From the NCBI GenBank assembly GCA_009836625.1, contig VXVC01000012.1, positions 608,847 to 672,846 of the forward strand: DNA of 64,000 nt. Reading direction: 5' to 3'. The DNA comes from Holophagales bacterium (GTDB taxonomy: Bacteria > Acidobacteriota > Thermoanaerobaculia > Multivoradales > Multivoraceae). Position 1 is the first letter of the stretch, and each line of letters begins with the position of its first letter. Below, piece after piece: positions 10,221-59,476 of the stretch. The translations under genes and the position numbers were made by a program. Under the pieces are notes generated by a model, which saw only the letters and a program-made list of their open reading frames with translations, had not been told where the DNA came from and did not search any database.

Positions 10221-10985
10221 TCAGGAGTTGTCCTTGCGGGTCCTGATCTCGCCGAAGACCTCGGCGTTCGTGGCGCCGGCCATGCCGAGCTGCGCGCGGA
10301 TGCCCGCGTCGTCGGGTCGCAGGAAGGGGTTGGTCCGCTTCTCGACCCCCAGGTTCGAGGGCACGGTGGGCTTGCCGTCCCGCCGCAACTCCTCGATCTC
10401 CGCGACCCGTTCCATCAACTCCTCGTTGTCGGGATCGACGGTGACGGCAAAGTGGGCGTTGGAGAGGGTGTACTCGTGGCCGCAGTGGACGATCGCGTCG
10501 TCGGGCAGGGCGCGCAGCTTGGCGAGCGACTCCCACATCTGTTCCATCGTGCCCTCGAACACCCGGCCGCAGCCCAGGGCGAACAGGGTGTCGGCGCAGA
10601 AGAGCGCTCGGTCGTCCTCGAACCAGTAGGTGATGTGCCCCGTCGTGTGACCGGGCGTGTCGAACACCTGGGCCTCGGCTTCGCCGAGCTGGAAGCGATC
10701 GCCCTCGCGCACCAGCAGGTCGAGCCCCGGAATGCGGTGCTGGTCGGCGGCTGGGCCGACCACCTGGCAGCCGTACTTCTCCTTCAGTGCGGGCACCGCG
10801 GCGATGTGGTCCATGTGGTGGTGCGTGATGACGATCCAGTCGATGCCGAAACCGCTGGCGGAAAGCGCTGCCTCGATCGGATCCGTCTCTGGCGGATCGA
10901 CGACTGCCGTCTTGCCGCTCCCCGTGTCGTGCAGCACGTAGGAGTAGTTGTCGCTCAGGACGGGGATCGTCTGGATCTCGAGCAT
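10221..10985 (-). CDS. gloB: Hydroxyacylglutathione hydrolase (glyoxalase II)
   Basis: This 254-residue metallo-beta-lactamase-fold protein carries the dinuclear metal motif THHHMDH at residues 54-60, then DTPGHTTGH, FCADTLFALGCGRVFEG and HCGHEYTLSN. The order and spacing of these motifs are those of glyoxalase II, which hydrolyses S-D-lactoylglutathione to lactate and glutathione in the cytoplasm. The C-terminal substrate-binding region with TNPFLR is also typical. No glyoxalase I gene is in the window. Length matches the family. Confidence 0.94.
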   Translation of the reverse strand: MLEIQTIPVLSDNYSYVLHDTGSGKTAVVDPPETDPIEAALSASGFGIDWIVITHHHMDHIAAVPALKEKYGCQVVGPAADQHRIPGLDLLVREGDRFQLGEAEAQVFDTPGHTTGHITYWFEDDRALFCADTLFALGCGRVFEGTMEQMWESLAKLRALPDDAIVHCGHEYTLSNAHFAVTVDPDNEELMERVAEIEELRRDGKPTVPSNLGVEKRTNPFLRPDDAGIRAQLGMAGATNAEVFGEIRTRKDNS

Positions 10986-11002: not shown

Positions 11003-11509
11003 TCAGCCGCAGTCCAGGCTGTTGGAGCGCACGTACGCGATCACCTTCCAGATCGTGTCTTCGGGGATCTTCCCCTCGAAGGGGAGCATCTCCGTGTTCG
11101 GCACGCCCTCGTTGATCACGCGGTACAGGTCGGCGTCCGTGTCGCCGTGGTCCCAGTCGCAGTCGAAGAGGTTCGGGGCGTCCTTGGTGACGCCCGGTGT
11201 CGTCGAATGGCAGTAGCCGGTGCAGACGGCGCGGAACATGCGCCGTCCGGCGGTGATCGCGGCGGGGTCCTCGAGGTACGCGGCGACGGGCGATGAAGCG
11301 GCTTCCGGTTCGGCGGCTGCGGCCGCGACGTCTGGCGCGGCCGGCGGCTCCACCGCGGCGGCGGGCTCTGCCGCCGCCGCTGTCGCCGTCGTGGCGTCAA
11401 CGGCGGCCTGCGCGCCGGGTTCCTCGGGCGCCGGCCCGCCGCCGGTGGCGCAGGCCGCCAGCAGCACCGGCAGGGCCAGACCGATCAACGAGGAGTAGCG
11501 AGCTTGCAC
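11003..11509 (-). CDS. c-type cytochrome lipoprotein, probable electron acceptor of the PQQ alcohol dehydrogenase
   Basis: The 168-residue protein starts with a lipoprotein signal peptide (LPVLLAAC, lipid Cys20). An Ala/Pro/Glu-rich linker of about 55 residues precedes a small cytochrome domain. The haem site is CTGYCH at residues 96-101, with three residues between the cysteines instead of two. Met141 in NTEMLPFEG is a likely axial ligand, and two extra cysteines (FDCDW and the C-terminal LDCG) could form a disulfide. It is the last gene of a three-gene unit after a PQQ dehydrogenase and a periplasmic binding protein, the place of xoxG. The GTG at 11509 lacks a good ribosome site; GAGGAG sits further upstream at 11562-11567, so the true start is uncertain. 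Confidence 0.8.
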   Translation of the reverse strand: MQARYSSLIGLALPVLLAACATGGGPAPEEPGAQAAVDATTATAAAAEPAAAVEPPAAPDVAAAAAEPEAASSPVAAYLEDPAAITAGRRMFRAVCTGYCHSTTPGVTKDAPNLFDCDWDHGDTDADLYRVINEGVPNTEMLPFEGKIPEDTIWKVIAYVRSNSLDCG

Positions 11510-11572
11510 GGCAGGCGGTTCGTTGGTGTTGGGCGGTTCGCTCGTGGTGGTCAGGGCGTTGCTCCTCGACGG

Positions 11573-12406
11573 TCAGGGCCCGCCGATGCCCAGCGCGCGG
11601 ATCGCTTCCGGCGAGGACACGGTGGGGAACGGTTCGATGCGGAAGATGCCATAACGCGCGGCCAGGCGCGCGAGAGTGCCGTCGCGGCGGAGGTCTTCGA
11701 GCACGCGCGCGACATCGTCACCAAGCGCGTCGCCGGCGCGCACCGCGGCGTGTTCGTTGAAGCGGAGTCCTGGAGGCGGCTCGAAGGCGTTCACGGGGTC
11801 CTTTCCCAGGCTGGCCAGGGCCGGGCCGAAGATCAGCGCCGCGGCGGCCCGGCCGTCGTCCACGGCGCCGACGACATCGGCCGCGCTTGGTTGCGAGGTC
11901 CAGTCCAGCCCTGCCGCCTGGGCGGCGAAGTGGGCGAGCGACTGCAGCCGCACTGCTACCTTGCGGTTCGCCACCGCTGCCGGCAGGCCGGCCCAGTCGA
12001 GGTTCTCGGCGGTCGGCATGTAGATCTCGAAGGCGGCCGCGTAGTAGGGCGGGCTGAGATCGGCCGCTCCGGCCAGTCGCCCGAGCGCGAGCCGGCCGGG
12101 TACGGAGGGTACGAGATCGCACTCGCCGTCGAGCAACTCGTCGAACGGCAGATCCGTGTCGTCTATCTCGGAGTAGGGCGGAGCCTTCGGCCGCCAGACC
12201 GGAACGAAGTCGCGGCCGAGGCGCTCCGCGGCTTCCCGGAACAGATCGTGGTCGAAGCCCGTACCTTCCGTGCGGTGGGCGCGCGGCAAGTCGTCCTCGA
12301 GCAGGCAGACCCGTAACTCCTCGGCCTGCGCGGGGGCGACCGCCAGGAAGAGGACGAGCGCTCCGGCCGCGGGTATCGGCCGCGTAGCTGCCGACACCAC
12401 AGTCAT
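11573..12406 (-). CDS. Periplasmic solute-binding-like protein, XoxJ-like
   Basis: The 277-residue secreted protein has a signal peptide ending near APAQAEE and then the fold of family 3 solute-binding proteins: EELRVCLLEDDLP, GFDHDLFREAAERLGRDF and SPPYYAAAFEIYMP. Such proteins adjoin PQQ methanol/ethanol dehydrogenases as MxaJ/XoxJ, where they are thought to help activate the enzyme rather than serve a transporter. Its ATG overlaps the stop of the dehydrogenase gene by one base (TGATG), so translation is coupled. No ABC permease genes are adjacent, which supports the XoxJ-like role. Substrate specificity cannot be read from the sequence. Confidence 0.8.
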   Translation of the reverse strand: MTVVSAATRPIPAAGALVLFLAVAPAQAEELRVCLLEDDLPRAHRTEGTGFDHDLFREAAERLGRDFVPVWRPKAPPYSEIDDTDLPFDELLDGECDLVPSVPGRLALGRLAGAADLSPPYYAAAFEIYMPTAENLDWAGLPAAVANRKVAVRLQSLAHFAAQAAGLDWTSQPSAADVVGAVDDGRAAAALIFGPALASLGKDPVNAFEPPPGLRFNEHAAVRAGDALGDDVARVLEDLRRDGTLARLAARYGIFRIEPFPTVSSPEAIRALGIGGP

Positions 12407-14166
12407 CACGAATCGAGTTCAAAGACGAGCAGCATGCTGCCTTCGGGCAGCGAGGGCGCGGTGCCGACCGCGGTCTGGACCACGCCGCCGCCGCCGGAAC
12501 CGACTGCCATGAAGGTCCGGCCCTCGTACTGGTACGCGATCGGGTGGCTGCGGATGCCGGAGCCGGTCTGGTAGCGCCAGACTTCTTCACCGGTCTCGGC
12601 GTCGAAGCCGAGAAGGTGGCCGGAGGCGTTGCCGGTGACGACCAGGCCGCCCGCGGTGCTGAGCACGCCCGCGAGCATCGGCACCGGGTCGCGGTAGCTC
12701 CACCTCGTCTCGCCGGTGCTGACGTCGATGGCCGACAGGTGCCCGTACGACTTCCCTTCGGCGGTGTCGGTCGGGATCGGCTCGCCGCCGAAGAACGGGA
12801 TGCCCTCGACGAAGACGACGACGCCCTTGCGGAACATCATGCAGCTCTCGATCGTCGGCACGTAGGCGAGGCCGGTCTCCGGACTGTAGGCGCCGGCGTA
12901 GGCGGCGTTGTTGCCACCGGCGAGACCGGGGCAGACGCGCTGGGTCGGTTCGTCCGCCGGCTTCATCACCGGGTCGACGACCGGCCGGCCGTCCTCGTCC
13001 AGCGTCGCCCAGTTCAACTGGTGGACGTACTGGCTGGCGTGCAGGAAGCCGCCGTCGCGGCGGTCGAGAACGTAGAAGTAGCCGTTCCGGTTCGCCTGGA
13101 CCAGGGCGGGAACGGTCTGCTCGTTGACCTGGACGTCGACCAGCCAGACCTCGGAGTTACCGTCGTAGTCCCAGACGTCGTGGGGCGTGAACTGGAAGTA
13201 CCACTTGCGCTCGCCCGTCTTGATGTCGACGGCCAGCACGCTGTCGCTATAGAGGTTGTCGCCGAGGCGGGTGTCGCCGTTCCAGTCGGGGGAGGGGTTG
13301 CCGGTGGTCCAGAACAGCGTCTGGGTCGCCGGATCGTAACTGCCGGTTGCCCAGGTGGCGGCGCCCCCGGTCTTGTACGACTCGCCCAACCAGGTCTCGA
13401 CACCGGGCTCGCCAGTGTCCGGCACGGTGTAGTGGCGCCAGAGCAACTCGCCGGTCTCCAGGTCGTAGCCGTCGAAGAAACCGCGGACACCGTACTCGCC
13501 GCCGCCGATGCCGATGACCACGACGCCCTCGGCGATGAGTGGCGCGGAGGTGATCGAGAAGCCCCTGGCGTACGGGATCACCTCGGTGTCCCAGGCGAGC
13601 TCGCCCGTCTTGCGGTCGAAGGCGAGCAGGCGGGCATCGAGGGTGCCCATGACGACGAGATCCCCGCCGATGCCGACGCCGCGGTTCACCGGCCCGCAGC
13701 AGATGCGCAGATCGGAGGGGTTCTGGTGGTCGTAGCGCCAGAGCAGCGTGCCGTCGGCGGCGTCGTAGGCGAGCAGACGGTTCATCGAAGACGTCAGGTA
13801 GAGCACGCCGTCGTAGACCACGGGTGAGGACTCGAGCTGACTCGGAACGCCGGTCTGGGCGACCCAGGCGACGCGGAGGTCGGAGACGCTGTCAGGCGTC
13901 AGCTCGGTGATCGGCGAGTGTCGCCAGCTCGCGTAGTTGCCGCCGTAGTGGAGCCAGGACTCGCGCGTCGGCGCCGCCTCGAGCAGCGACTGGTCGACCG
14001 GGCCCGCGCCGTCTCCGACGGCCGCCGCCGCCGGCCAGTGGTGCTGGGGCCCTTCGGTGGCGCCCCCCTTCTGGGCTGCGACCGGAAGAGCCAGAAACAG
14101 CAGAGCGAGAGCACCGGTCGTGACCTGGAGAACCGGCTTCCTGGCGGCGTGACGGATGGCTGGCAT
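12406..14166 (-). CDS. PQQ-dependent alcohol dehydrogenase, probably lanthanide-dependent
   Basis: This 586-residue periplasmic quinoprotein has a signal peptide (residues 1-31), then an eight-bladed W-motif propeller. The vicinal disulfide pair is C156-C157 in RICCGPVNRG, a hallmark of the methanol/ethanol dehydrogenase group. Predicted metal ligands are E224 (GGGEYGVRG), N290 (TTGNPSPDW), the catalytic D333 and D335 in VWDYDG. The second Asp, two residues after the catalytic one, is what separates lanthanide-type XoxF/ExaF enzymes from calcium-type MxaF/ExaA. There is no fused cytochrome domain; the separate cytochrome and XoxJ-like genes follow. The ATG at 14166 has an AGGAG site. The alcohol substrate is not determined by sequence. 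Confidence 0.88.
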   Translation of the reverse strand: MPAIRHAARKPVLQVTTGALALLFLALPVAAQKGGATEGPQHHWPAAAAVGDGAGPVDQSLLEAAPTRESWLHYGGNYASWRHSPITELTPDSVSDLRVAWVAQTGVPSQLESSPVVYDGVLYLTSSMNRLLAYDAADGTLLWRYDHQNPSDLRICCGPVNRGVGIGGDLVVMGTLDARLLAFDRKTGELAWDTEVIPYARGFSITSAPLIAEGVVVIGIGGGEYGVRGFFDGYDLETGELLWRHYTVPDTGEPGVETWLGESYKTGGAATWATGSYDPATQTLFWTTGNPSPDWNGDTRLGDNLYSDSVLAVDIKTGERKWYFQFTPHDVWDYDGNSEVWLVDVQVNEQTVPALVQANRNGYFYVLDRRDGGFLHASQYVHQLNWATLDEDGRPVVDPVMKPADEPTQRVCPGLAGGNNAAYAGAYSPETGLAYVPTIESCMMFRKGVVVFVEGIPFFGGEPIPTDTAEGKSYGHLSAIDVSTGETRWSYRDPVPMLAGVLSTAGGLVVTGNASGHLLGFDAETGEEVWRYQTGSGIRSHPIAYQYEGRTFMAVGSGGGGVVQTAVGTAPSLPEGSMLLVFELDS

Positions 14167-14300: not shown

Positions 14301-15416
14301 ATGACGGACGACGACAGCGGCACGCAGTCACTCTATGGCCGGCTCGACCCGGAACAGGTCGGCGCCTTCGCTCTGAAGGTGTGGCAGTTCAAGCAGGGCG
14401 AGCTCGTCTCCCTGATGATTCACCTCGGCGACCGGCTGGGCATCTATCGCACCCTTCAGGGCCTGGGTCCGGTGAGCCCGGCGGAACTGGCCGAAGCCAG
14501 CGGGCTGAAGGAGCGCTGGTTGCGCGAGTGGCTGCACGGCCAGGCGGCCGCCGGACTGCTCGACTACCACGGAGTCGAGAACGGCGGCGAGCCGCGCTTC
14601 GAGCTCAACGGCGTCGCCGCGGCGGTGCTCGCGGACGAGGAGAACTCCGTGGCCTTCGCCGCCGGCGCCTTCGGCTATCCGCCCGACCACGACGTGATCG
14701 ACGGTACTGCGGAGGCGTTCAGGACCGGAATCGGCCTGTCCTACCAGCAGCTCGGGCCCTGCGCCGCGCATCGCACCGAGCGCATGCTCGGCCCCTGGAC
14801 CCGGCAGGCGCTGGTGCCGCGGATCGTGCCCGCGCTCGACGGCGTCGAGGATCGGCTGCGGGCCGGAATCGACGTCATCGACGTCGGCTGTGGCGGCGGC
14901 GTGGCGCTCCTGTCCCTGGCCCGGGCCTTCCCGGAGTCGCGTTTCACCGGGTACGACCCGTCCGCGCACGCGATCGACATCGCCCGTGAGCGCACCCGGG
15001 AAGCAGGCGTCGCGAACGTCGACTGGCAGATCGCTCCCGGCGAGGACCTGCCGCGGGAGCCGAGCTTCGACCTGGTCGTGACCTTCGACTGCATCCACGA
15101 CATGACGCGACCGGACCTCGTCATCAAGGCCATCCGCGGCGCCATCCGGGACGACGGCACCTGGTTGATCAAGGACATCCGCAGCAGCCCGCGGTTCGAG
15201 GACAACATGCGCAATCCGGTGCTTGCGCTCCTCTACGGGTTCTCGGTTTCGGCCTGCATGTCGTCGGCCCTGTCCGAGCCGGACGGCATGGGCCTGGGAA
15301 CGCTGGGTTTCAACCCGGTCGTGGCGGAGCGGATGGTGCGGGAAGCCGGCTTCACCCGCTTCCGGATGCACGACTTCGACGACCCGGCGAACCTGTACTA
15401 CGAAGTCCGACCCTGA
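14301..15416 (+). CDS. Class I SAM-dependent methyltransferase
   Basis: The 371-residue protein has an N-terminal winged-helix-like region (SPAELAEASGLKERWLREWL near residues 59-78), as in dimeric O-methyltransferases. A Rossmann SAM-binding domain follows, with motif I VIDVGCGGG at residues 192-200, the acidic post-motif GYDPS, and FDLVVTFDCIHDM further on. The ATG at 14301 is preceded by GTGAGGAGAAG; the reading frame is open upstream but lacks a ribosome site. It is divergent from the PQQ dehydrogenase gene, and the 134 bases between them should hold both promoters. The acceptor substrate is unknown. Confidence 0.85.
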   Translation: MTDDDSGTQSLYGRLDPEQVGAFALKVWQFKQGELVSLMIHLGDRLGIYRTLQGLGPVSPAELAEASGLKERWLREWLHGQAAAGLLDYHGVENGGEPRFELNGVAAAVLADEENSVAFAAGAFGYPPDHDVIDGTAEAFRTGIGLSYQQLGPCAAHRTERMLGPWTRQALVPRIVPALDGVEDRLRAGIDVIDVGCGGGVALLSLARAFPESRFTGYDPSAHAIDIARERTREAGVANVDWQIAPGEDLPREPSFDLVVTFDCIHDMTRPDLVIKAIRGAIRDDGTWLIKDIRSSPRFEDNMRNPVLALLYGFSVSACMSSALSEPDGMGLGTLGFNPVVAERMVREAGFTRFRMHDFDDPANLYYEVRP

Positions 15417-17637: not shown

Positions 17638-19902
17638 TTACTGGCCGCCGTTCAGCGCCTGAAGCACTCTCGGCGGCGTCATCGGCAGCTCCGTCGGCCG
17701 CGCACCGCAGGCGTCGGCGATGGCGTTGGCCACGGCGGCCGCCGTGGGGACGACCGGGGGCTCTCCGACGCCGCGGGCGCCGAAGGGCCCGTGGTCGGAC
17801 GGCACCTCGACCAGGACCGTTTCGAGCTCGGTCGGACTCTGGGCGGAGTGGGGCAGGGCGTAGTCGTTCAGGGTTGCCGTCAGGAGCTGACCGTCCTCGC
17901 TGTACGCCATCTCCTCGTAGAGCGCCCAGCCGATGCCCTGCAGGGCGCCGCCCATCATCTGGCCCTCGACCGCGGCCGGATTGATTGCCCGGCCGCAGTC
18001 CTGGATGACGACGACCCGGTCGACGTCGACCCGTCCGGTTTCCCGGTCCACCCGCACCTCCGCGAGTTGGGCGCAGAAGCCCGGCGCCTGGCTGGTCTGG
18101 GCGTGCCGGCCGTGACCGAAGACCGGCGCCTGCCGGCCGCCGAACCGCATCGTCCGCTGGGCGATCTTCTTGAGTGGAATCGCCTTGTCGGGCGAGCCCT
18201 TCACCTGCACGGCGCCGTCGACGATCTCGAGGTCCTCGGGATCCGCCTCGAAGGTCTGCGCGGCGAGTTCCAGCGTCTGCTGGCGCGCCTCGCGGGCCGC
18301 CTGAATGACCGGCGGGCCGACCGTGTAGATCGTCTTGCTGCCACCCGAAGCCCCGGCGTACGGCCCCGACGACGTGTCGCCCGTGGCGATCGTGACCTTG
18401 TCCGGGTCAAGGCCGAATGCTTCGGCCGCCATGAGCGCCATGCTCGTGTTCGTGCCGTTGATGTCGGCCGTGCTGATGTGGACCTTGAGCGTGCCGTCGG
18501 TCTGCAACGCGCAGGCGGCGGAGGCCGGCTCCGTGCCGCCGGGCCAGGCGCCGAGCGCGATGCCGACGCCCCGTCCCTCGGCCCGCGCCTGCTCGCGGTT
18601 CTGCCAGGCCGGGTGATCGCGGAGAGCTTCCAGGACCTGCCGCTGGCCCATCCCGGCCCAGGGCATTCCGGACGCCATCGGGGTGCCCTTCTCCGAGGCG
18701 TTCTGCAGCCGGAACTCGACCGGGTCGAGGTCGAGTTCGCGAGCGAGCTGGTCGAGGACCGTCTCGACGACGAATGCCGCCTGGGGAGCGAGCGGCGCGC
18801 GATAGGCGCCGACCGACGGCTTGTTCGTCGTGACCTCGAAGCCGCCGACCGCCTGGTTCGGGGTCTGGTAGGAGCTCCCCAGCAGGGTCCCGGCAAGGGC
18901 GGTCATCGAGGAGGGGAAACAGCCGCAGTCGATCGCCAGGTCGGCCTCGAGCGCGGTGAGCTCTCCGCTCCGCTTCGCTCCAGCCCGAATCGTGATCCGG
19001 GTCGAAGGCGCCGGAGTCGCCGCCAGCATCTCCTCGGTCCGGGTCATCACCAGGCGGACGGGGCGCTGGTGCTGGACCGCGGCGAGTGCGAGGAGGGGCT
19101 CGTACAGGACGAATTTGGCGCCGAAACCGCCGCCGACCGGAGTGCCGATGACCCTCACCTGGTCCTGCGGCATGCCGAGCACGCCGGCGATCGCGTCCCG
19201 GATGAAGAACGGCGCCTGGGTCGAGCAGTAGACGGTCATTCCGTTCCCCATCGGATCCGGGTCGATCAGGGAGGCGTGGGGCTCGATGTAGGACTGGTGG
19301 ACGGACGCGGTGCGGAAGACCCGTTCGACGACCGCGTCCGCCTCGGCGTAGCCGCGCTCGAGATCGCCGCGCTCGAAGCGCATCCTGTTCGTCACGTTGG
19401 GCGACGAGGCGACCGCCTCTTCGCCCTCCGATACGTCGCCGGCTCCGTGCGCTGCCGCCTCCTCCGACTGTCCCGGGAGACCGTCAGGCCAGACCGCCTG
19501 GGCGTCGGGCGCCTCCGCCTGCTCGATCGTCACGATGGCATCGAGCGGCTGGTAGTCGACCGCGACGGCATCCGCGGCGTCCGCGGCCACCGCCTCGTTC
19601 TCGGCGAGAACGAGCGCGACCGGGTGGCCGACGAAGATCGCCCGCTCGCGCGCCAGAAGGAGGGTCGCCCGGTTACTCGGCGGCAGCGCCGGAAGGTCGG
19701 CGGCGGTGATGACCGCGGCCACCCCCGGCATCGCCTCGGCGGCGGCGGTGTCGATGCTCAGCACTTCGGCGTGGGCATGGGGGCTCGTGACCAGGCGGGC
19801 ATGGAGGAGCCCGGGCCGGTCGAGGTCGCCGCAAAAACGGAGCGAGCCCTTGACCTTGGGCGCGCCCTCGAGGAGCTTGGTGGGGGTGCCGATCGCTGTC
19901 AT
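17638..19902 (-). CDS. Xanthine dehydrogenase/aldehyde oxidase family molybdopterin-binding subunit
   Basis: The 754-residue protein is a large (molybdenum) subunit of the xanthine oxidase family. Landmarks are the N-terminal domain GAPKVKGSLRFCGDLDRPG, the cofactor loop GTPVGGGFGAKF near residue 250, the substrate-pocket segment AYRAPLAPQAAF, and the catalytic Glu in RGVGEPPVVPTAAA near the C-terminus. The FAD and 2Fe-2S subunits that normally accompany it are absent on both sides, so it is an orphan here. The substrate (purine, aldehyde, nicotinate-like ring or CO) is unresolved; the carbon-monoxide-type Cys loop was not seen. Confidence 0.9.
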   Translation of the reverse strand: MTAIGTPTKLLEGAPKVKGSLRFCGDLDRPGLLHARLVTSPHAHAEVLSIDTAAAEAMPGVAAVITAADLPALPPSNRATLLLARERAIFVGHPVALVLAENEAVAADAADAVAVDYQPLDAIVTIEQAEAPDAQAVWPDGLPGQSEEAAAHGAGDVSEGEEAVASSPNVTNRMRFERGDLERGYAEADAVVERVFRTASVHQSYIEPHASLIDPDPMGNGMTVYCSTQAPFFIRDAIAGVLGMPQDQVRVIGTPVGGGFGAKFVLYEPLLALAAVQHQRPVRLVMTRTEEMLAATPAPSTRITIRAGAKRSGELTALEADLAIDCGCFPSSMTALAGTLLGSSYQTPNQAVGGFEVTTNKPSVGAYRAPLAPQAAFVVETVLDQLARELDLDPVEFRLQNASEKGTPMASGMPWAGMGQRQVLEALRDHPAWQNREQARAEGRGVGIALGAWPGGTEPASAACALQTDGTLKVHISTADINGTNTSMALMAAEAFGLDPDKVTIATGDTSSGPYAGASGGSKTIYTVGPPVIQAAREARQQTLELAAQTFEADPEDLEIVDGAVQVKGSPDKAIPLKKIAQRTMRFGGRQAPVFGHGRHAQTSQAPGFCAQLAEVRVDRETGRVDVDRVVVIQDCGRAINPAAVEGQMMGGALQGIGWALYEEMAYSEDGQLLTATLNDYALPHSAQSPTELETVLVEVPSDHGPFGARGVGEPPVVPTAAAVANAIADACGARPTELPMTPPRVLQALNGGQ

Positions 19903-27298: not shown

Positions 27299-27381
27299 TC
27301 GCTGCGACTGAACGTGACGCGCACCGCTGCTACGATCCGCGCTTCCGCGAACGACGACTGGATTGAATGAGGAGTCCAACG

Positions 27382-29358
27382 ATGGCGCGTCACGCCCTTT
27401 TGGCCCTCGTTCTCGCCGGGACTTCCGTGGCTCTCGGTCAGCCGCCGGCGGATACCGATTGGTCCGTCGTGACCGGTAACGACGCGAGTCAGCGGTACGC
27501 GCCGCTGGGGCAGATCGATCGGGACAACTTCGGAGAGCTCGAAGTCGCCTGGCGATGGTCGTCGCCGGACAACGAGTTGATGACCGGGGATGGCGAAACG
27601 ACGAGGCGGCGCATGGTGCCGCGGAATCACGAGGCGATTCCGATCAAGATCGGCGACCGGCTCTACGTCACGACCGGCTATGGGCAGATCGCGGCCATCG
27701 ACCTCGAGCGCGGGACGAGCCTCTGGACCTATGACCCACGGGCGTACGTTCACGGCCGGCCGACGAATCTCGGCTTCACGCACCGGGGCGCGGCGTACTG
27801 GAAGGACCCGGACCTGCCCGGCGAGGGCGGCCGGCTGGTGTGGGCGGGCGGCGATTCCTTCCTGCGCGCGGTGGACACGCTGAGCGGCGAACCCGTCGCC
27901 ACGTTCGGTGACGGCGGCGCCGTCGACCTCACCCTCGGCCTGCGCCGCGAGGTCTCGCGGCGGGTCTACAGCGTCAGTTCGCCTGTCACCCTGTGCCGCG
28001 ACGTCGCGATCGTCGGTTCTTCCATCTCGGACGGGCCGCGCGCGCCGGAAGCGGCGCCGGGCGACGTCCGCGGATTCGACGTGCGCAGCGGCGAGCAGCT
28101 CTGGACGTTCCATTCGATTCCGCAGCAGGGCGAACCCGGGCGCGATACCTGGGAGGGCGGTTCGTGGAAGTACAGCGGCAACACGAACGTCTGGACCCTG
28201 ATGAGCGCCGACCCGGAACTCGGCCTCGCCTACCTGCCGTTCGGCACGCCGACCAACGACTGGTACGGCGGACACCGCCTGGGCGACAATCTCTACGCCG
28301 AGTCGCTGGTCGCGGTCGACTGCGAAACCGGGGAGCGGCGCTGGCACTTCCAGACGGTTCACCACGGCCTGTGGGACTACGACCTGCCGACTCCGGCAAT
28401 CATCGGCGACATCGAGGTCGAGGGCCGCTCCATCCGGGCGGCGATGCAGCTCTCAAAGCAGGGCTTCCTCTACGTCTTCGACGCGGGCACCGGCGAACCG
28501 GTGTGGCCGATCCTGGAGCGCGAAGTGCCGCAGACCGGCATCGTCGGGGAACGGACATCGCCCACACAACCCTTCCCCACCAGGCCGCCGGCCTTCGAAC
28601 GCCAGGGCCTCGGTCCGGAGGATCTGATCGACTTCACGCCGGAACTCCGCGGCGAGGCGATGGCCATCCTCGGCCGTTACCAGTACGGGCCGATCTTCAC
28701 GCCGCCCACGGAGCGCGGCACGTTTCTGATGCCCGGCTACGGCGGCGGCGCGAGCTGGCCCGGCGGCGCCTTCGACCCGGAGACCGGCATGCTCTACGTG
28801 CCGTCCTTCACCTGGCCCGTCGTGAACACGCTGCGCAAGCCCGACGCGAACCGCTCGTCCTTCGACTACGTCGGCCGCATCACCAGCGATGTCCGGGGCC
28901 CGCGCGATCTGCCGCTGGTCAAGCCGCCCTACTCCCGGATCACCGCCTACGACATGAACCGTGGCGGGATCGCCTGGACCGTGCCCCTGGGCTACGGCCC
29001 GCGCCGGCATCCGGCGCTCGCCGGGCTCGACCTGCCTGCCCTCGGCTCGGGCGCCCGCGGCCACGTCGTGGCGACGAAGACGCTGCTGTTCGTGACCTCC
29101 GGCCGGTCGCTCGCCTTTCGCGGAGTCGACCGCGAGGCGACCGCCGAGGGCGCCGGACGCGACGACTGGCGGATCGAGACGCCGGCATTGCGCGCGTTCG
29201 ACAAGGCGACCGGCGAACTCGTCGGCGAGATCGAGTTGCCCGCTCACACCGACGGCAGCCCCATCACCTTCCTGCATCGAGGCCGGCAGTACCTCGTGTT
29301 CGCCCTCGGCGGCCGCGGCGCGGCCTTCGAGCTGATCGCCTACCGGCTACCCATCTAG
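27382..29358 (+). CDS. PQQ-dependent dehydrogenase, glucose-dehydrogenase-like group
   Basis: The 658-residue secreted protein has a short signal peptide (ALLALVLAGTSVALG) and a quinoprotein propeller (DWSVVTGNDASQRYAPLGQI, HRLGDNLYAESLVAVD). The probable catalytic Asp is in HHGLWDYDLPTP, as in membrane glucose dehydrogenase relatives. Unlike the enzyme at 12.4 kb it lacks the vicinal Cys pair. The ATG at 27382 follows AGGAG by about eight bases; an ATG 15 bases upstream overlaps that site and is less likely. It ends nine bases before a CocE-type hydrolase, so the two are probably co-transcribed. The substrate is a sugar or alcohol, not resolved. Confidence 0.85.
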   Translation: MARHALLALVLAGTSVALGQPPADTDWSVVTGNDASQRYAPLGQIDRDNFGELEVAWRWSSPDNELMTGDGETTRRRMVPRNHEAIPIKIGDRLYVTTGYGQIAAIDLERGTSLWTYDPRAYVHGRPTNLGFTHRGAAYWKDPDLPGEGGRLVWAGGDSFLRAVDTLSGEPVATFGDGGAVDLTLGLRREVSRRVYSVSSPVTLCRDVAIVGSSISDGPRAPEAAPGDVRGFDVRSGEQLWTFHSIPQQGEPGRDTWEGGSWKYSGNTNVWTLMSADPELGLAYLPFGTPTNDWYGGHRLGDNLYAESLVAVDCETGERRWHFQTVHHGLWDYDLPTPAIIGDIEVEGRSIRAAMQLSKQGFLYVFDAGTGEPVWPILEREVPQTGIVGERTSPTQPFPTRPPAFERQGLGPEDLIDFTPELRGEAMAILGRYQYGPIFTPPTERGTFLMPGYGGGASWPGGAFDPETGMLYVPSFTWPVVNTLRKPDANRSSFDYVGRITSDVRGPRDLPLVKPPYSRITAYDMNRGGIAWTVPLGYGPRRHPALAGLDLPALGSGARGHVVATKTLLFVTSGRSLAFRGVDREATAEGAGRDDWRIETPALRAFDKATGELVGEIELPAHTDGSPITFLHRGRQYLVFALGGRGAAFELIAYRLPI

Positions 29359-35625: not shown

Positions 35626-37215
35626 CTACTCGATCGCCTCGAGCGGGACCGCGCTCGCGAGTTTGAGATCTCGGCTCGTCACGCGGACCTCGCGCTCGAT
35701 CGCCGCGTCCTGAGCGTGGTCGGTGTAGTAGGTCAGGACGTGCTGGTGCCGCAAGTCCTCCTGGATCTGGTCGAAGACCTTCTGGAACCGCTCGGTGATG
35801 GGTGGGCCACCTGTCAGGAGTTCTACGGTGAAGACCCGTCCGCCTGTCCGCTGACTGATTCGCTTGAGACGGTTGCGGGCTCGGCGTTGTGCAAGCGTGG
35901 TGCTCGATCGGAAGTGTGTGCGACCCGCGGAGTCCCTGACCCTGGTCGTTCTGGTGGACCGATCCAGTTGGATGAAGTAGATCGGAATGCCGCGGCGCTC
36001 GGCCAGCGCGGCTGACTGGTTTCGCTCCGACCGGCTGTGTTCGTCGACGCCGTCGGTCACGACGACCAGCGCCCGGCGGCCCGGCTCGCTCCGATACTGG
36101 AGTAGGGAGAAGAGGATGCCGTCGTTCAGTGCCGTGCCCAACCTGGGCACGAGTGATCGAACCCGGCTCAGGAGGAGGCGTTTGTACTCGGTCAACTCGC
36201 AGGCCAGACGAACCGTGCCGGCGAAGTCGACAACGAAGGCCCTGTCTCCCGTTGACAGGGCAGACTCCAGGAACCCGGATGACACCTCTCTCAGCTGGTG
36301 CCAGATCGGTCTGACGCTGTTCGATGTGTCGATGGCAAGGCCAAGAACCAGGGGTACGTCGTAAGCGGTGTGCAGGGCCACCGCGGGCCGCCTTCGGCCG
36401 TTCTCACGGATCTCGAAGTCCTCGGGAGAGAGTCCGCTCACGGGGTTGCCCTCGTTGTCCGTTACCAGCAACTGGAACTGGACCAGTTCGACGTCGATCT
36501 CGCTCTGGTAGTCGGCGCCCTCGATGAGTTGAGCGTCTTCCGACTCGCGACCGTTGGCGAGCGTCGCCACAACGCGGACGAAGTCGTCTCTGGACGCGTA
36601 CTCCATCAGGGCATCGACCGGGATCGTGCGGGGATCGCCCGGCGCCGCGTCTGCCCCGAAGCGGGACACGGTCTCGACCAGGCGCTCGCCGCGAAGGAAC
36701 GCGACCTGTTCGAGTTTCTCGGACCGTGGCAGCGAGACGTCCACCTCGATCCGCACTGCGTCGTACCCGGACTGCTGCAGGCGGCGCATCGCCTTGATGC
36801 GGACGCCGAATGGTAGGTCCGGTTCGTTGAGGATCATCCGGCCAGTGCCGAGGAGCTCGCCCAGCGCGTCGTAGCCGCGGACTTCGAGGGTCTGTTTCCG
36901 GGGCGGTCGGGCCAGTTCGACGTGGCCTGTGAACGGCTTCTTCCTGACCCTCCTCTTCAGCTCGCCGTCGAGAAGGAAGTCGAGCGCCGTGATCTGCGGA
37001 TGGATGATCAGGGTCTGGATCTCGACCCTGCCGCTGAACGGCTGAAGGTAACCGCGGGTGGGCGGCACGATGTGGATCATCTTCCGCTCCGCGCCCCTCC
37101 GAAAGTCGGGGCTCGCGTCCTGGGCGATGGCCGGCGCCTTCCAGAAGACCGCCGGCGCCGGCGCGAGCACCGCTGCGAGTGCCAGGGCGGTGCGGAAGGG
37201 AGCCGATGGCCGCAC
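35626..37215 (-). CDS. VWFA-domain secreted protein, array member 6 (shortened)
   Basis: The 529-residue protein is the last and shortest of the array. After a signal peptide it goes almost directly into the Ig-like central region (MIHIVPPTRGYLQPFSGRVEIQT, then LEVRGYDALGE). It therefore lacks the N-terminal WxRNxxxSEDP-containing domain of about 150 residues found in its paralogs. The VWFA domain is intact, with the metal site AIDTSNSVRPIW and VVTDGVDEHSR. The C-terminus DLRHQHVLTYYTDH matches the others. The start is GTG at 37215, 15 bases after the preceding gene. It may be a functional short form or an old truncation. Confidence 0.85.
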   Translation of the reverse strand: MRPSAPFRTALALAAVLAPAPAVFWKAPAIAQDASPDFRRGAERKMIHIVPPTRGYLQPFSGRVEIQTLIIHPQITALDFLLDGELKRRVRKKPFTGHVELARPPRKQTLEVRGYDALGELLGTGRMILNEPDLPFGVRIKAMRRLQQSGYDAVRIEVDVSLPRSEKLEQVAFLRGERLVETVSRFGADAAPGDPRTIPVDALMEYASRDDFVRVVATLANGRESEDAQLIEGADYQSEIDVELVQFQLLVTDNEGNPVSGLSPEDFEIRENGRRRPAVALHTAYDVPLVLGLAIDTSNSVRPIWHQLREVSSGFLESALSTGDRAFVVDFAGTVRLACELTEYKRLLLSRVRSLVPRLGTALNDGILFSLLQYRSEPGRRALVVVTDGVDEHSRSERNQSAALAERRGIPIYFIQLDRSTRTTRVRDSAGRTHFRSSTTLAQRRARNRLKRISQRTGGRVFTVELLTGGPPITERFQKVFDQIQEDLRHQHVLTYYTDHAQDAAIEREVRVTSRDLKLASAVPLEAIE

Positions 37216-37230
37216 GCGCTCGCCGCCGTC

Positions 37231-39315
37231 CTAGTCGATTCCCGGCAGCGGGACCGCGCTCAGCAGCCTGAGTCCGCGCCGGGTCACCCTGATCTCCGGT
37301 TCGATGGGGGCGCCCGGCGGGCGATCACTGTAGTAGGTGAGCACGTGCTGATGCCGGAGGTCCTCCTCGATCTGATCGAACACCTGCTCGATTCGCTCGA
37401 CCCACGGCGGATCGTCGCTGAGGAGTGGAATCGCAAAGACACGCCCGCCAGTCTGCTTGCTGATCCACCTGAGCCGTCGGCGTGACTCTTGCTGTTGTCT
37501 TGTCGTGCTGGTCCAGATACCGAAAGGGTCATTGGGCTTGAACGTGTCGTCGGATTGGTCCAGTTCGATGAAGTAGATCGGTAGGCCCAGGCGCTCGGCG
37601 AAGTCGGCGGACTGTCCCGGTCGCGTGCGGCTGCGGGTGTCGACGCCGTCCGTGATCACGACGAGGGCGCGGCGGCCTGGTTCGTGACCGTACTGCAGGA
37701 GCGAGAACAGGAGCCCGTCGTTCACGGCGGTGCCGCCCCACGGGGTCAGTCGACCCAGCGCGCGGGAGAGAAGCCCTCTGTCTTCGGTCAACGGCTGGAG
37801 GAGCCTCACCGCGTCGTCGAAGTCCACGATGAAGGCACGGTCTCCCGGCGTCAGGGCGGTCTCCAGGAAGCTCGCGGCAATGGAGTGCAACTCTCGCCAG
37901 ATCGGTAGCACGCTGTCCGAGGAGTCGACTGCCAGACCCAGGACCAACGGGACGTCGTGGGCGGTATGGAGACCTTCCACCGGGCGTGGTTGGCCGTTCT
38001 CGCGGACCTCGAAGTCGCCGGGTGAGAGGCCGCTGACCGGATTGTCCCGGCGATCCGTCACCAGGATCTGGATCTGGATCAGTTGAACGTCGATTTCGCT
38101 CTGGTAGTCAGCGCCCTGGAGGAGTTGCGCGTCCTCCCGTTCGCGGCCATCGGCCAGACGTGCGCTGACGTGGACGAAATCGTTCGCGTCGATTTCAGCG
38201 ATCAGCGCCCCGACGCGGACCGTACCCCTGGTGTCGAGCGCCGCTTCTTCAGTGAAGTCATCCAGGCTGGAGACGAGTTCTTCGCCGCGATGGAACTCGA
38301 CCCGCTCCAGCGCGGCGCTCCTCGGCACCGAGACGGCCGCTTCGACCCGGACCTGGGCGTCCTCGCCGGAATCCTGGGGGCGGATCCGCGCTATCCGGAC
38401 GGAAAACGGCCTGTGGAGCCGGTTGAGGACGACCGCGTCGTTGCCTGCGTACTCCCCGCCGGGGCCCCAGGCTCGGACTTCGAGCGTCTGCTCACGGGGC
38501 GGCTCGGCCAGTTCGAGATCGGTCGCGAAGGGCGGCCTCCTCACAACCGCGGCGAGCTGCCCGTCGACGAGGAAATCGACCGCGGCGATCCGCGAGTCGA
38601 TGACCAGGGTCCGGATTCGGTGACTGCCGCTCAGCAACTCGCGGTAGCCGCTTCGCGGCGGCACGATACGGATGGCCGCCGCTTCGGCGAGGCGCTCCGG
38701 CCGGCGGATGTCGGGAGGATCGGGTCCAAGTACTCTCTCCGGACGGTCGTACACCGTACGGAACTTCACGCCTGCCGTTCGGTGGCCTCGAAACTCGACG
38801 ACTCGAACCAGTTGGTTGCCGTCGCGGTGGAGCGTCTCGACCCGCCGCCACTCCGCGTTCGAAGTTTCGATCGTAGGCGACTCCCTGAAGCCCACGATGC
38901 GGCCCTCGACGTTGTCGGGCCCATGATTCGTGCGCTTTTCGACGTCGAGCGGATAGGCACGGAGGATGCCCCGGTCGTCGCGGACCATGATCGCCTCGCC
39001 CTTGACCCGGATCAGGATCGTGTCGAACCGATCGGCGGCGTCCCGGGCCAATCTCCGCAGGAGCCGGGCGGCGTAGTTGTTCCCCGGGTACAGGCTGGCG
39101 GTCTTTTGAACCGGATCCTCGCTGAGTCCCTCGTTCCGCATCCAGGGGCCCAGCAGAGGGGTCAGCGAAACGTCGTCGTGCGTCGCCTCGCCGTACGGGG
39201 CGGCCTCGTCGCCGGCTGGTGCGGGCTGTGGCGACCAGGCGTGCACGGTCGGCAACCAGATTGCGAACGCGAGCGTGAGGTGACCCACTGCCCCTGCTTG
39301 AATCCGTTCCCGCAT
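37231..39315 (-). CDS. VWFA-domain secreted protein, array member 5
   Basis: The 694-residue protein has a signal peptide, an N-terminal domain with GPWMRNEGLSEDPVQK, a central Ig-like region (AIRIVPPRSGYRELLSG to LEVRAW), and a VWFA-related domain with the metal site AVDSSDSVLPIW and VVITDGVDTRSR. The tail is DLRHQHVLTYYSDRPPG and EPEIRVTRRGLRLLSAVPL. The ATG lies two bases after the stop of the preceding gene. Such domains bind protein ligands through a divalent metal, so a periplasmic or surface adhesive or scaffolding role is plausible but unproven. Confidence 0.86.
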   Translation of the reverse strand: MRERIQAGAVGHLTLAFAIWLPTVHAWSPQPAPAGDEAAPYGEATHDDVSLTPLLGPWMRNEGLSEDPVQKTASLYPGNNYAARLLRRLARDAADRFDTILIRVKGEAIMVRDDRGILRAYPLDVEKRTNHGPDNVEGRIVGFRESPTIETSNAEWRRVETLHRDGNQLVRVVEFRGHRTAGVKFRTVYDRPERVLGPDPPDIRRPERLAEAAAIRIVPPRSGYRELLSGSHRIRTLVIDSRIAAVDFLVDGQLAAVVRRPPFATDLELAEPPREQTLEVRAWGPGGEYAGNDAVVLNRLHRPFSVRIARIRPQDSGEDAQVRVEAAVSVPRSAALERVEFHRGEELVSSLDDFTEEAALDTRGTVRVGALIAEIDANDFVHVSARLADGREREDAQLLQGADYQSEIDVQLIQIQILVTDRRDNPVSGLSPGDFEVRENGQPRPVEGLHTAHDVPLVLGLAVDSSDSVLPIWRELHSIAASFLETALTPGDRAFIVDFDDAVRLLQPLTEDRGLLSRALGRLTPWGGTAVNDGLLFSLLQYGHEPGRRALVVITDGVDTRSRTRPGQSADFAERLGLPIYFIELDQSDDTFKPNDPFGIWTSTTRQQQESRRRLRWISKQTGGRVFAIPLLSDDPPWVERIEQVFDQIEEDLRHQHVLTYYSDRPPGAPIEPEIRVTRRGLRLLSAVPLPGID

Positions 39316-39317
39316 CG

Positions 39318-41345
39318 CTAGTCGATCCCCGGCAGCGGCACCGCGCTGCGCAGCTTCAACCCGCGCCGGGTGACCCGGATCTCCGGTTCGACCAGCGCCC
39401 CGGGAGGCTGGTCGGTGTAGTACGTCAGAACGTGCTGGCGGCGCAGATCCTCTTCGATCCGGGCGAAGACCTGCTCGATCGGCTCGCCCCACCAGCGCGT
39501 GTCGCCGTGGAGCTCCAGGTGGAAGAGACGGCCTCCCGTCGCTTCGGCGATGCGCTGGAGTCGCTCGCGGTTGCGGCGAAGAACAGCAACGCCGGGGTCC
39601 CCGGCGCGGGAGTTGTCGAGTTCGATGAAGTAAATCGGCAGACCCAGCCGCTCCGCGAACTCACTGGACTGCTCTGGGCGCGAACGGCTGTGTTGATCGG
39701 CGCCATCGGTGATCACGACCAGCGCCCGTCGACCCGGCTCGCCGCGGTACTGGAGGAGGGAGAAGAGGAGTCCATCGTTCAGGGCCGTGCCGCCCATCGG
39801 GATCAGGTAGTCGAGTCGGTCGGACAGCAGCGGTTCGTCTTCCGTCAGCGGCTGGACGAGGCGCACGGTGTGATCGAAGTCGACGAGGAAGGCCCGGTCC
39901 CCGGGCGTCACCGCGGTTTCCAGGAAGCTCCGCGCGATGAACTTAAGGCGACTCCAGGTGGGCAGCATGCTGTCCGACGAATCGACCGCGAGCCCCAGGA
40001 CGAGAGGCACGTCGTAGGCGGTGTGGAGGTCTACTGCAGGGCGGCTCCGGCCGTTCTCGCGTATCTCGAAGTCCCCGGGCGAGAGTCCGCTCACCGGATT
40101 GCCGTCGCGGTCGGTCACCAGCACCTGGAACTGGACAAGCTGGATGTCGATCTCGCTCTGGAACTCGGAGCCCTGGAGGAGTTGCGCGTCTTCACGCTCA
40201 CGGCCGTCGGTGAGCTTCGCGACGACGCGGATGAAGTCGTCGGGCAGGGCGCCGTCGACCAGCGCCTCGACCTGAATCGTGCGCGCGGCGCCTGCGGCTG
40301 CCTCTCGCCCAAAGTGACGCACAGCCTCGACGAGAAGGTTGCTCCGGTAGAACTCGACCCGCTCGAGCGTCGCGCCGCGGGGTAGCGAAAGCGAGGCAGC
40401 TACCCGGATCGCGGCGTTTCCGCCTACCGGAACGCTCCTTATGGCCGCGATGCGGGCGGCGAAAGGTCGGTCCACCTGGTTGAGGGGGAAATCGTCGCGG
40501 CCGAGGTACTCTCCGTTCCTGTCGTAAGCGACGACTCCGAGCTCCTGCTGGCGAGGTGGGTCGGCCAGACGGATGCGAGTCCTGAAGGGCCGTTTCCGGA
40601 CCCGTCTGATTCGTTCGCCGTCGAGAGAGAACTCGACTTCGACGATTCGCGGGTCGATGATCAGTGTCTGGATCTCGACGCGTCCGCTGAGTAGTTCGCC
40701 GTAACCGCGTTCGGGCGGCAGGATGCGGATGGCGGCCGGAGGGTCGGTCACCGGGGACTCCAGGTCGAGCGGTCCCGGCCTCTCGTAGACCGTGTCGACC
40801 TGGAACGGGGGCAGGCCGCGAGGTTCGAGGTCGGTCCACCGTACGAGCCACTCGCGCTCCCGGAAGAAGGTGTCGGTCTGACGTCCGTAGGGCTCGACGA
40901 TCTCGATCGTCAGTGTCTCGCCGGCTTCGAGAATGCGCCCCTTGACGCCACGACCGAGGTGGCGCCGCCTTCCGTTGTACGGGAGAACGCGCGTGCCGCC
41001 GCGGCCGTCGAGGAGCGCGACGTCGCGTTCGAGAGTGCGGATCATGAGCGTCTCGAAACTGTCGGCGACTCCTTGCGCGATCTCGCGCAGTCTTGACAGG
41101 TCCTGTTCCGACTCGAGGTCGAGACTCTCGACCTTGTGGACAGGGTGTTCGCTGAACGCGTCGTTTCTGATCCACGGTCCGAGGACGCTGGAGGAGCGGA
41201 GTTCCTCGCTGATGTCGAGGAAGCCGAACGTTTGATTGCCTGGGGGTTGTCCCGCGCTCGGTGCCGGCAGAAGACCCGTGAGGGCCAGTACCGACGCTGC
41301 CGCCAACCTCACGGGCCGCTCCCACCTTCGACCTGGGCTCATCAT
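39318..41345 (-). CDS. VWFA-domain secreted protein, array member 4
   Basis: The 675-residue protein has the same architecture as member 5: signal peptide, GPWIRNDAFSEHPVHK (His replacing the usual Asp), the Ig-like region AIRILPPERGYGELLSG, VWFA with AVDSSDSMLPTW and VVITDGADQHSR, and the tail DLRRQHVLTYYTDQPPG. It differs from member 5 mainly in the N-terminal domain, while the VWFA and tail regions are close to it. This suggests these two are the most recently diverged pair. Confidence 0.86.
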   Translation of the reverse strand: MMSPGRRWERPVRLAAASVLALTGLLPAPSAGQPPGNQTFGFLDISEELRSSSVLGPWIRNDAFSEHPVHKVESLDLESEQDLSRLREIAQGVADSFETLMIRTLERDVALLDGRGGTRVLPYNGRRRHLGRGVKGRILEAGETLTIEIVEPYGRQTDTFFREREWLVRWTDLEPRGLPPFQVDTVYERPGPLDLESPVTDPPAAIRILPPERGYGELLSGRVEIQTLIIDPRIVEVEFSLDGERIRRVRKRPFRTRIRLADPPRQQELGVVAYDRNGEYLGRDDFPLNQVDRPFAARIAAIRSVPVGGNAAIRVAASLSLPRGATLERVEFYRSNLLVEAVRHFGREAAAGAARTIQVEALVDGALPDDFIRVVAKLTDGREREDAQLLQGSEFQSEIDIQLVQFQVLVTDRDGNPVSGLSPGDFEIRENGRSRPAVDLHTAYDVPLVLGLAVDSSDSMLPTWSRLKFIARSFLETAVTPGDRAFLVDFDHTVRLVQPLTEDEPLLSDRLDYLIPMGGTALNDGLLFSLLQYRGEPGRRALVVITDGADQHSRSRPEQSSEFAERLGLPIYFIELDNSRAGDPGVAVLRRNRERLQRIAEATGGRLFHLELHGDTRWWGEPIEQVFARIEEDLRRQHVLTYYTDQPPGALVEPEIRVTRRGLKLRSAVPLPGID

Positions 41346-41364
41346 CGGCGAACTGCCGCCGTGG

Positions 41365-43656: not shown

Positions 43657-43719
43657 GTTGACCGCCTCTATGTCTTATGCAGGATACAGGCCAGCGGCTT
43701 GCGGTCCGCCAGGAGCTCG

Positions 43720-44472
43720 TTAGATCGCCAGAAAGTCCCGCACTCCCTTCAACACGCACACGGCCCCCAGCGCCAGGATCACCGGCCCGGTGACCCGCCG
43801 GAACTGACGGTCGTCGAACCGGTCGAGAAGGCGGGTTCCGATCCGCGCGCCGGCCACCGCGAGCGTCATGCCGCCTGCGATCAGCCAGGGGGAGAGCCGG
43901 TCGTCGGGCAGCTCCGGCAGGACCGTGCGGGACACCCAGACGTAGTAGCCGATCTTGAGCAGATGACCGACGGTCTGGGTGAACGCCTTGGTGGCGACGA
44001 TCGTGCGCCGGTCGACCTTCGTTTCGAGGTAGAACGCGTCGAGCAGGGGGCCGGACGCGCCGGCGAGAAGCTGCGCGCCGGTGACGGTCAGGCCGCAGAG
44101 CGCGGCCGTGCGCCGGTTGCGGACGTCGAGTCCCCGCAGAGCCGGCAGCAGCCGGGCAACCCAGGGGAAGCTGCCGACGACGATCAGGACCAGCGCCGGG
44201 TCGGGCACGAAGGCGATCGCCACGAACAGCAGCACGGCCAGCGATGCGCCGGCGCCGTACCACGGCAGCACGGACCACATCATGCGGTCGCGGAGGAAGA
44301 GGAATCTGGCGCCGTTCGATGTCGCCTGCACGGCGCCGTGCAGGATCATCGCTCCGGTGACCGGCAGGACGCTCGCCAGCACGGCCATCAGCATCAGACC
44401 GCCGGCCATGCCGAGCACGCCGGAGATGACGGCGGTCAGGAGAACGGTCGCGAGAATCGCTGCCGGGAGCAT
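43720..44472 (-). CDS. TauE/SafE-type permease inside the VWFA array
   Basis: The 250-residue integral membrane protein has about seven or eight hydrophobic helices, starting MLPAAILATVLLTAVISGVLGMAGG. It contains the two short Gly-rich motifs (SGVLGMAGGLML and a later internal repeat with GASGPLLDAF) of the sulfite exporter TauE/SafE family, predicted anion or organosulfur exporters. It sits between array members 2 and 3, with gaps of 52 and 63 bases, all on the same strand. The transported ion is not known from sequence. Confidence 0.82.
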   Translation of the reverse strand: MLPAAILATVLLTAVISGVLGMAGGLMLMAVLASVLPVTGAMILHGAVQATSNGARFLFLRDRMMWSVLPWYGAGASLAVLLFVAIAFVPDPALVLIVVGSFPWVARLLPALRGLDVRNRRTAALCGLTVTGAQLLAGASGPLLDAFYLETKVDRRTIVATKAFTQTVGHLLKIGYYVWVSRTVLPELPDDRLSPWLIAGGMTLAVAGARIGTRLLDRFDDRQFRRVTGPVILALGAVCVLKGVRDFLAI

Positions 44473-44524
44473 CCGGGAGAACTGGGCGGTGACTGGGTGC
44501 GACGCGCTCTGCCGCAGCGGCAGA

Positions 44525-46564: not shown

Positions 46565-46571
46565 CCTCTAC

Positions 46572-48575: not shown

Positions 48576-48590
48576 CGGTGGCACCGGCCT

Positions 48591-48600
48591 GTATTCTCTG
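48591..48600. promoter_or_regulatory. Possible shared bidirectional -10 element
   Basis: The 34 bases between the divergent start codons contain TATTCT at 48592-48597. On the plus strand this is a -10-like hexamer, with its ATG 12 bases downstream. On the minus strand the same bases read AGAATA. Both transcripts would have leaders of about 5 to 15 bases, which agrees with the lack of ribosome sites. No strong -35 hexamer is seen on either strand. Confidence 0.35.
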
Positions 48601-48609
48601 ACACTTCCC

Positions 48610-57528: not shown

Positions 57529-59476
<1,948 letters not shown>

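Follow-up and report, generated by a model that had tools for sequence, protein, structure and literature searches.

A predicted lanthanide-type alcohol dehydrogenase unit with a CX3CH partner cytochrome in Acidobacteriota

The 64,000-nucleotide stretch analysed here (the window; contig VXVC01000012.1 of assembly GCA_009836625.1, positions 608,847 to 672,846) belongs to a Holophagales bacterium, whose genome measures 4.32 Mb at 98.75% completeness. It carries a three-gene set encoding a pyrroloquinoline quinone (PQQ)-dependent alcohol dehydrogenase, a periplasmic binding protein distantly related to MxaJ/XoxJ and a monohaem lipoprotein cytochrome c (Table 1). An initial annotation had read the set as a lanthanide-type alcohol dehydrogenase unit in an acidobacterial host. 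Its observations are confirmed: the host is acidobacterial, and the Cys pair 156-157, E224, N290, D333 and D335 all lie where it had placed them. Its interpretation is partly supported: the outline is right, while the clade assignment, the use of residue spacing as evidence and the type of cytochrome are corrected below. The CX3CH haem motif, the lack of PQQ synthesis genes and the 29 quinoprotein genes of the genome had escaped it. The dehydrogenase and binding-protein genes join at TCGTGATGACT, so that the one-base overlap described there holds if the binding protein starts at ATG and becomes four bases with the GTG start.

Table 1. Positions of the three-gene set, its key residues and other features of the window
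Feature	Position	Strand	Remark
Three-gene alcohol-oxidation set	11003-14166	(-)	Acidobacteriota bacterium
PQQ-dependent alcohol dehydrogenase	12406..14166	(-)	586 amino acids from ATG; signal-like hydrophobic stretch at N-terminus
Periplasmic binding protein, distant MxaJ/XoxJ relative	11573..12409	(-)	GTG start; alternative ATG at 12406
Monohaem lipoprotein cytochrome c	11003..11509	(-)	Ala/Pro-rich linker; Cytochrome_CBB3 match
Vicinal cysteines C156-C157	13696..13701	(-)	sequence and alignment
Metal ligand E224 (MxaF E177)	13495..13497	(-)	sequence and alignment
Metal ligand N290 (MxaF N261)	13297..13299	(-)	sequence and alignment
D333-Y334-D335, D-x-D lanthanide motif (MxaF D303, A305)	13162..13170	(-)	sequence and alignment
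Cytochrome lipobox LAAC	11450..11461	(-)	read from sequence
CTGYCH, CX3CH haem motif of cytochrome	11207..11224	(-)	23/23 loci
Met, presumed distal haem ligand (M70 of cytochrome alignment)	11087..11089	(-)	invariant 15/15; role inferred
Molybdenum hydroxylase large subunit (xanthine/aldehyde oxidase type)	17638-19902	(-)	
Second quinoprotein of the window	27367-29358	(+)	Pfam PQQ 583 bits; no Cys pair
Array of von Willebrand A domain proteins	35626-48827	(-)	members 35626-37215, 37231-39492, 39318-41345, 41365-43656, 44525-46564, 46572-48827
TCP-1/Cpn60 family chaperonin	57529-59166	(-)	545 amino acids

Metal site and lineage of the dehydrogenase

With 536 bits, the dehydrogenase exceeds the cut-off of 480 set for TIGR03075 (methanol/ethanol PQQ dehydrogenases), and alignment finds in it the complete E/N/D-x-D ligand set of lanthanide-type PQQ alcohol dehydrogenases. 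The lanthanide-type motif proposed by the initial annotation stands, as its residues line up with ligands of solved enzymes, and neither the four ligands nor the Cys pair vary among the 15 relatives aligned, so the motif residues are not a chance match. The dehydrogenase alignments leave out L031 and L034, where the frame is broken. At MxaF position 305, Asp occurs in the window protein, XoxF and PedH, in contrast to Ala in MxaF, Ser in ExaA and Thr in the quinohaemoprotein alcohol dehydrogenase (32-row set). The enzyme is thus predicted to be of the lanthanide type by its D-x-D motif. In MxaF numbering it also keeps E55, C103-C104, R109, T159, E177, W243, N261, D303, R331 and N394, among which E55, C103-C104, R109, T159, W243, R331 and N394 are presumably the PQQ-contacting residues. 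At L031:5779-7736 and L034:5785-7645 the dehydrogenase frame is split in draft assemblies, which may reflect sequencing error or decay.

The 43-residue N-to-D spacing, put forward earlier as a further lanthanide indicator, proved not to be diagnostic. The spacing is 43 in the window protein and XoxF2 (4MAE) and 42 in XoxF 6DAM, S. meliloti XoxF, PedH and the calcium-type MxaF, while two ExaA-like rows with a calcium-type D-x-S motif have 43 as well; since the values of calcium and lanthanide enzymes overlap, this marker was dropped. The E-to-N stretch is short, with 66 residues in the window protein versus 77-87 in the reference rows (the figure of 77 for 6DAM omits 11 residues dropped as X), and a stretch of 60-66 is common to two other quinoproteins of the same genome (OWN_L055 and OWN_L054), L035 and L066. 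At the position of MxaF W540, the MxaF and XoxF rows have Trp, which is replaced by Val or Ile in the aligned acidobacterial members of the window's clade.

The best solved match by sequence is the lanthanide-dependent PedH (1e-111), which is also the best fold match in the PDB for the AlphaFold model (predicted local distance difference test score, pLDDT, 72.6), which supports a PedH/XoxF-like fold. The phylogenetic comparison with XoxF, PedH and MxaF suggested by the initial annotation nevertheless set the protein apart. In a 31-row tree, which took in 10 clade members and four of the genome's 29 quinoproteins besides the window protein and contained no ExaF-labelled sequence, the window clade (10 rows, support 100/100) is separate from XoxF/MxaF, ExaA/PedH and the quinohaemoprotein alcohol dehydrogenases, and the sequences closest to it, both long-branched, are a Bryobacteraceae protein and a further quinoprotein of the window's genome. 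Approximately unbiased (AU) tests rejected exclusive grouping with XoxF/MxaF (p = 0.0045) and with the PedH group (p = 3.6e-8), the comparisons with XoxF and PedH having been named beforehand and the exact row sets picked after the tree was seen. The dehydrogenase is, as judged from sequence and predicted fold, closest to PedH yet neither XoxF nor PedH, and falls in a clade of its own.

Partner proteins and distribution of the unit

Profile searches with the binding protein matched 5sv6 (family 3 solute-binding protein, which we take to be MxaJ; E 1.5e-9) and XoxJ 6onp (E 1.3e-4), and hhalign gave a probability of 93% against MoxJ of Paracoccus, so that the earlier label "XoxJ-like" is a fair one. 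By this homology and by its position next to the dehydrogenase the protein groups with XoxJ/MxaJ; the relationship is remote, as its 19.6 bits against NCBIfam MoxJ lie far under the equivalog cut-off of 258. The structure predicted for it (pLDDT 50) was too poor to use.

The cytochrome passes the Cytochrome_CBB3 model (41 bits, cut-off 27) and reaches only 29.6 of the 147.8 bits set for TIGR03872 (XoxG/MxaG cytochrome cL). Instead of the CXXCH of XoxG/MxaG it reads CTGYCH, and the motif C-[T/S/A]-G-Y-C-H, with three residues between the cysteines, is found at all 23 loci compared (the window and L013-L034), with CGGYCH in the cytochrome beside the dehydrogenase at L088. The two cysteines, the His (C25, C29 and H30 of the alignment) and one Met do not vary among the 15 cytochromes aligned, and 22 of the 23 loci have a lipobox-like site ahead of the haem domain. 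Normal spacing is seen in MoxG of Paracoccus (CSGCH) and in the cytochrome beside the genome's other dehydrogenase with Cys pair and D-x-D (CSLCH). The cytochrome of the initial annotation therefore holds as partner of the dehydrogenase but is not a standard XoxG/MxaG, being a predicted lipoprotein with CX3CH. Two gammaproteobacterial genomes carry second CX3CH cytochromes (CADFCH and CAEYCH; L108:1498-1794 and L116:1504-1788) with no dehydrogenase in the 3.3 kb stretches examined, so the family may have other partners.

A genome scan returned 25 loci, 19 of them in acidobacterial metagenome-assembled genomes (MAGs) labelled Thermoanaerobaculia, Holophagales, Acidobacteria or similar, including Candidatus Multivorans thiocomprendens (L018, 92%); best-segment identity is 88-98% for 18 of these and 65% for L026. 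The other loci belong to a Bryobacteraceae MAG (44%), Longimicrobiales (59%), two gammaproteobacterial MAGs (56-58%), Marinobacterium (40%) and, remotely, Myxococcales (26%). Many of the acidobacterial MAGs presumably come from marine sponges. The cytochrome adjoins the dehydrogenase at 22 of the 25 loci, in the window and at L088, and all three genes occur together at 20 of 23 loci (the window and L013-L034). L028 (on a short contig), L029 and L030 have dehydrogenase and cytochrome with no detectable binding protein, the cytochrome being on the opposite strand at L029 and upstream at L030. In a further acidobacterial family (G092, L088) the dehydrogenase and cytochrome are directly adjacent, with no binding protein within the stretch examined, and the pair without binding protein also occurs in Gammaproteobacteria and Gemmatimonadota. 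This persistence of the pair speaks for the cytochrome as the partner of the dehydrogenase; because the binding protein was not found at such distant loci, the pair does not depend on it in all cases.

Among 297 acidobacterial genomes, 65 match the cytochrome profile at 1e-8, with strong matches (>100 bits) in the window's genome, 10 others of its genus and G092. CTGYCH is present in all 11 genomes of the genus, and C[TSA]GYCH in none of 18 loci retrieved from among the weaker matches, three of which, read in frame, have CXXCH. A Gemmatimonadota sample gave matches at 1e-15 in 6 of 298 genomes, with CX3CH only in the one already known, and matches at 1e-15 in two gammaproteobacterial samples (194 and 369 genomes) were confined to the two centre genomes. 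Given so few matches across these samples, the unit is rare and patchy.

The neighbouring genes were weighed as possible members. The glyoxalase II gene gloB (10221-10985), which might have hinted at an oxoaldehyde product, was rejected because those relatives that show it have it some 1.3-4 kb away from the cytochrome, and in others it was not seen within the stretch examined; the genes after gloB have no consistent linkage to the unit. The diverging methyltransferase gene (14304-15416) is a neighbour kept in close relatives only and was not counted as part.

Cofactor supply and proposed function

The window's genome holds 29 near full-length quinoprotein matches (rows with E < 1e-40), five of them over the TIGR03075 cut-off. 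D-x-D occurs in 26 of the 29, the whole E/N/D/D set in only three (the window protein, L055 and L054) and the Cys pair, among these three, in the window protein and L055, in an alignment whose divergent rows may be misaligned. pqqC was found in none of 20 acidobacterial genomes carrying the unit (the window's own, 12 from a set of 15 genomes and 7 from a second set of 9, whose other two members were a repeat and a Gemmatimonadota genome); most are drafts, and L023 lies in a 4.63 Mb record titled chromosome. The same search finds pqqC in Marinobacterium and one of two gammaproteobacteria, as positive controls, and gave no match in the Gemmatimonadota genome of the second set. PqqE has no match in the window's genome either, four radical S-adenosylmethionine candidates having been discarded as they score best as AhbD-like, MoaA, HpnH and another type of that superfamily; pqqA, pqqB and pqqD were not searched for. 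At 1e-10 the E. coli PqqU query matched nothing in the window's genome; of 12 acidobacterial relatives, 11 likewise lacked a match and G007 gave a weak one at 23%. Given this lack of synthesis genes among those sought, the organism presumably obtains its PQQ by scavenging. According to the accessible text of PMC12124388, scavenging without synthesis is common, synthesis genes occurring in just 23% of bacteria with PqqU, and acidobacterial PqqU was found only in Vicinamibacteria, which agrees with the missing match here; PMC9531527, in its accessible part, counts PQQ domains among the eukaryotic-like repeats enriched in sponge microbiomes.

The absence of methylotrophy signs noted earlier is borne out: no Fae was detected in the window's genome by a search with control matches in two genomes, and the Trp of methanol dehydrogenases is Val or Ile. 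No XoxF/MxaF-clade protein is present among the genome's five quinoproteins placed on the tree. These two absences, together with the pocket change at 540, favour multicarbon alcohols as substrates.

What stands on sequence here is the gene set, the conserved residues, the clade, the cytochrome pairing and the missing pqqC; metal identity, substrate, electron path and PQQ uptake are inferred. The set is probably a periplasmic alcohol-oxidation unit in which a lanthanide- and PQQ-dependent dehydrogenase for multicarbon alcohols is fed with scavenged PQQ. In the dehydrogenase, E224, N290, D333 and D335 would most likely bind a light lanthanide alongside the PQQ cofactor, and the substrate would be an alcohol or aldehyde of more than one carbon, not methanol. 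Electrons from PQQH2 would pass through the dedicated membrane-tethered cytochrome with its CX3CH haem to a terminal oxidase, and PQQ would be taken up from outside. Loading of PQQ and metal is probably assisted by the MxaJ/XoxJ-like protein, roles that the available portions of PMC12997753 and PMC7391723 describe for XoxJ-type proteins.

Several points weigh against this proposal. The equivalent of MxaF W476 is Leu in the aligned window protein, and the distant loci have no detectable binding protein. Neither PQQ synthesis genes nor PqqU were found that would account for the cofactor supply. D-x-D is also no proof of lanthanide use: according to the accessible part of PMC11996626, the membrane glucose dehydrogenase carries it too and is able to form complexes with Ca, Mg, Zn and Sr. 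A calcium-dependent or metal-promiscuous enzyme, in which the second Asp would be tolerated without signifying a lanthanide, draws on that precedent and on two other quinoproteins of the genome that keep D-x-T or D-x-S, which indicate that calcium-type enzymes exist in this organism; it is nonetheless unlikely, as XoxF and PedH have the same four ligands and Cys pair, none of which varies among the relatives, and PedH is the nearest solved structure. The same motif and the adjoining XoxJ-like and cytochrome genes would suit a XoxF-type methanol dehydrogenase in a cryptic methylotroph, which the AU test against the XoxF/MxaF clade, the lack of Fae and the replaced W540 make highly improbable.

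The missing pqqC and PqqE would fit an "empty" quinoprotein or an enzyme with another cofactor, in a genome unable to make PQQ, and TIGR04528 ("acido-empty-quinoprotein") matches at 395 bits; this score stays below the cut-off of 650 whereas that of TIGR03075 is reached, the PQQ-contact residues and Cys pair are retained and scavenging is widespread, which renders this explanation very unlikely. As to the cytochrome, the first Cys of CTGYCH might not be haem-bound, leaving a single-thioether c-type or a non-haem relic, since the usual haem motif is CXXCH and the window's genome has one CcmF-type haem lyase match, under its cut-off. Both cysteines and the His are nevertheless kept at 23 of 23 loci and L088, the CADFCH and CAEYCH copies retain both cysteines, and PMC6295460 (accessible text) describes CX3CH in homologues of ImcH and CymA as a putative haem motif of atypical form, so this alternative seems rather unlikely.

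Elsewhere in the window, an apparent tandem array comprises six large proteins that all carry a von Willebrand A domain in the C-terminal half, and the second quinoprotein gene lies beside an S15 peptidase gene; a molybdenum hydroxylase and a chaperonin are also encoded (Table 1).

Relation to known systems

Being compact and conserved, the unit lends itself to testing the use of rare-earth metals outside methylotrophs. Its monohaem CX3CH cytochrome, likewise conserved, can serve to probe which substrates the haem-attachment machinery accepts, and with 29 quinoprotein genes in one genome and no PQQ synthesis genes found, community cofactor exchange becomes directly testable. A bolder proposal, held only tentatively, is that it represents a new quinoprotein electron-transfer system, in which a lanthanide alcohol dehydrogenase lineage with a dedicated CX3CH lipoprotein acceptor would extend over three phyla and a whole acidobacterial genus without PQQ synthesis would use community PQQ. 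Among the matches listed by the literature search, nothing concerned this unit by title or abstract for lanthanide/PQQ in sponge symbionts, and none joined CX3CH to a quinoprotein, most subscription papers being outside its reach; no paper was found under the three Multivorans names.

The dehydrogenase itself is no surprise, since the accessible part of Voutsinos 2025 (PMC11996626) describes marine lanthanide-type PQQ dehydrogenases, with three marine Acidobacteria and fifteen Pseudomonadales genomes holding unusually many, up to 70 per genome. The window's genome resembles these expansions, whereas CX3CH cytochromes and loss of PQQ synthesis are not mentioned in that part. XoxF3 with XoxJ and XoxG is known from soil Acidobacteria (PMC10875860, accessible part). 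Compared with PedH of Pseudomonas putida (6ZCV/6ZCW), the window protein shares the E/N/D/D ligands, the vicinal Cys pair and the lack of Trp at MxaF position 540, but it differs in its separate clade, its E-to-N stretch of 66 rather than 82 residues and the CX3CH of its partner cytochrome. The XoxF/XoxJ/XoxG systems of methylotrophs likewise combine a D-x-D dehydrogenase with an adjacent binding protein and cytochrome; the window unit departs from them in its own clade, the absence of Trp at 540 and of Fae in the genome, the CX3CH lipoprotein cytochrome and a binding protein far under the MoxJ model cut-off. The ImcH/CymA homologues have the same atypical haem motif and are, by the accessible text of PMC6295460, multihaem inner-membrane quinol oxidases, in contrast to the monohaem quinoprotein partner described here. 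It is in this CX3CH partner and the missing PQQ synthesis that the unit goes beyond known systems, and both are worth following.

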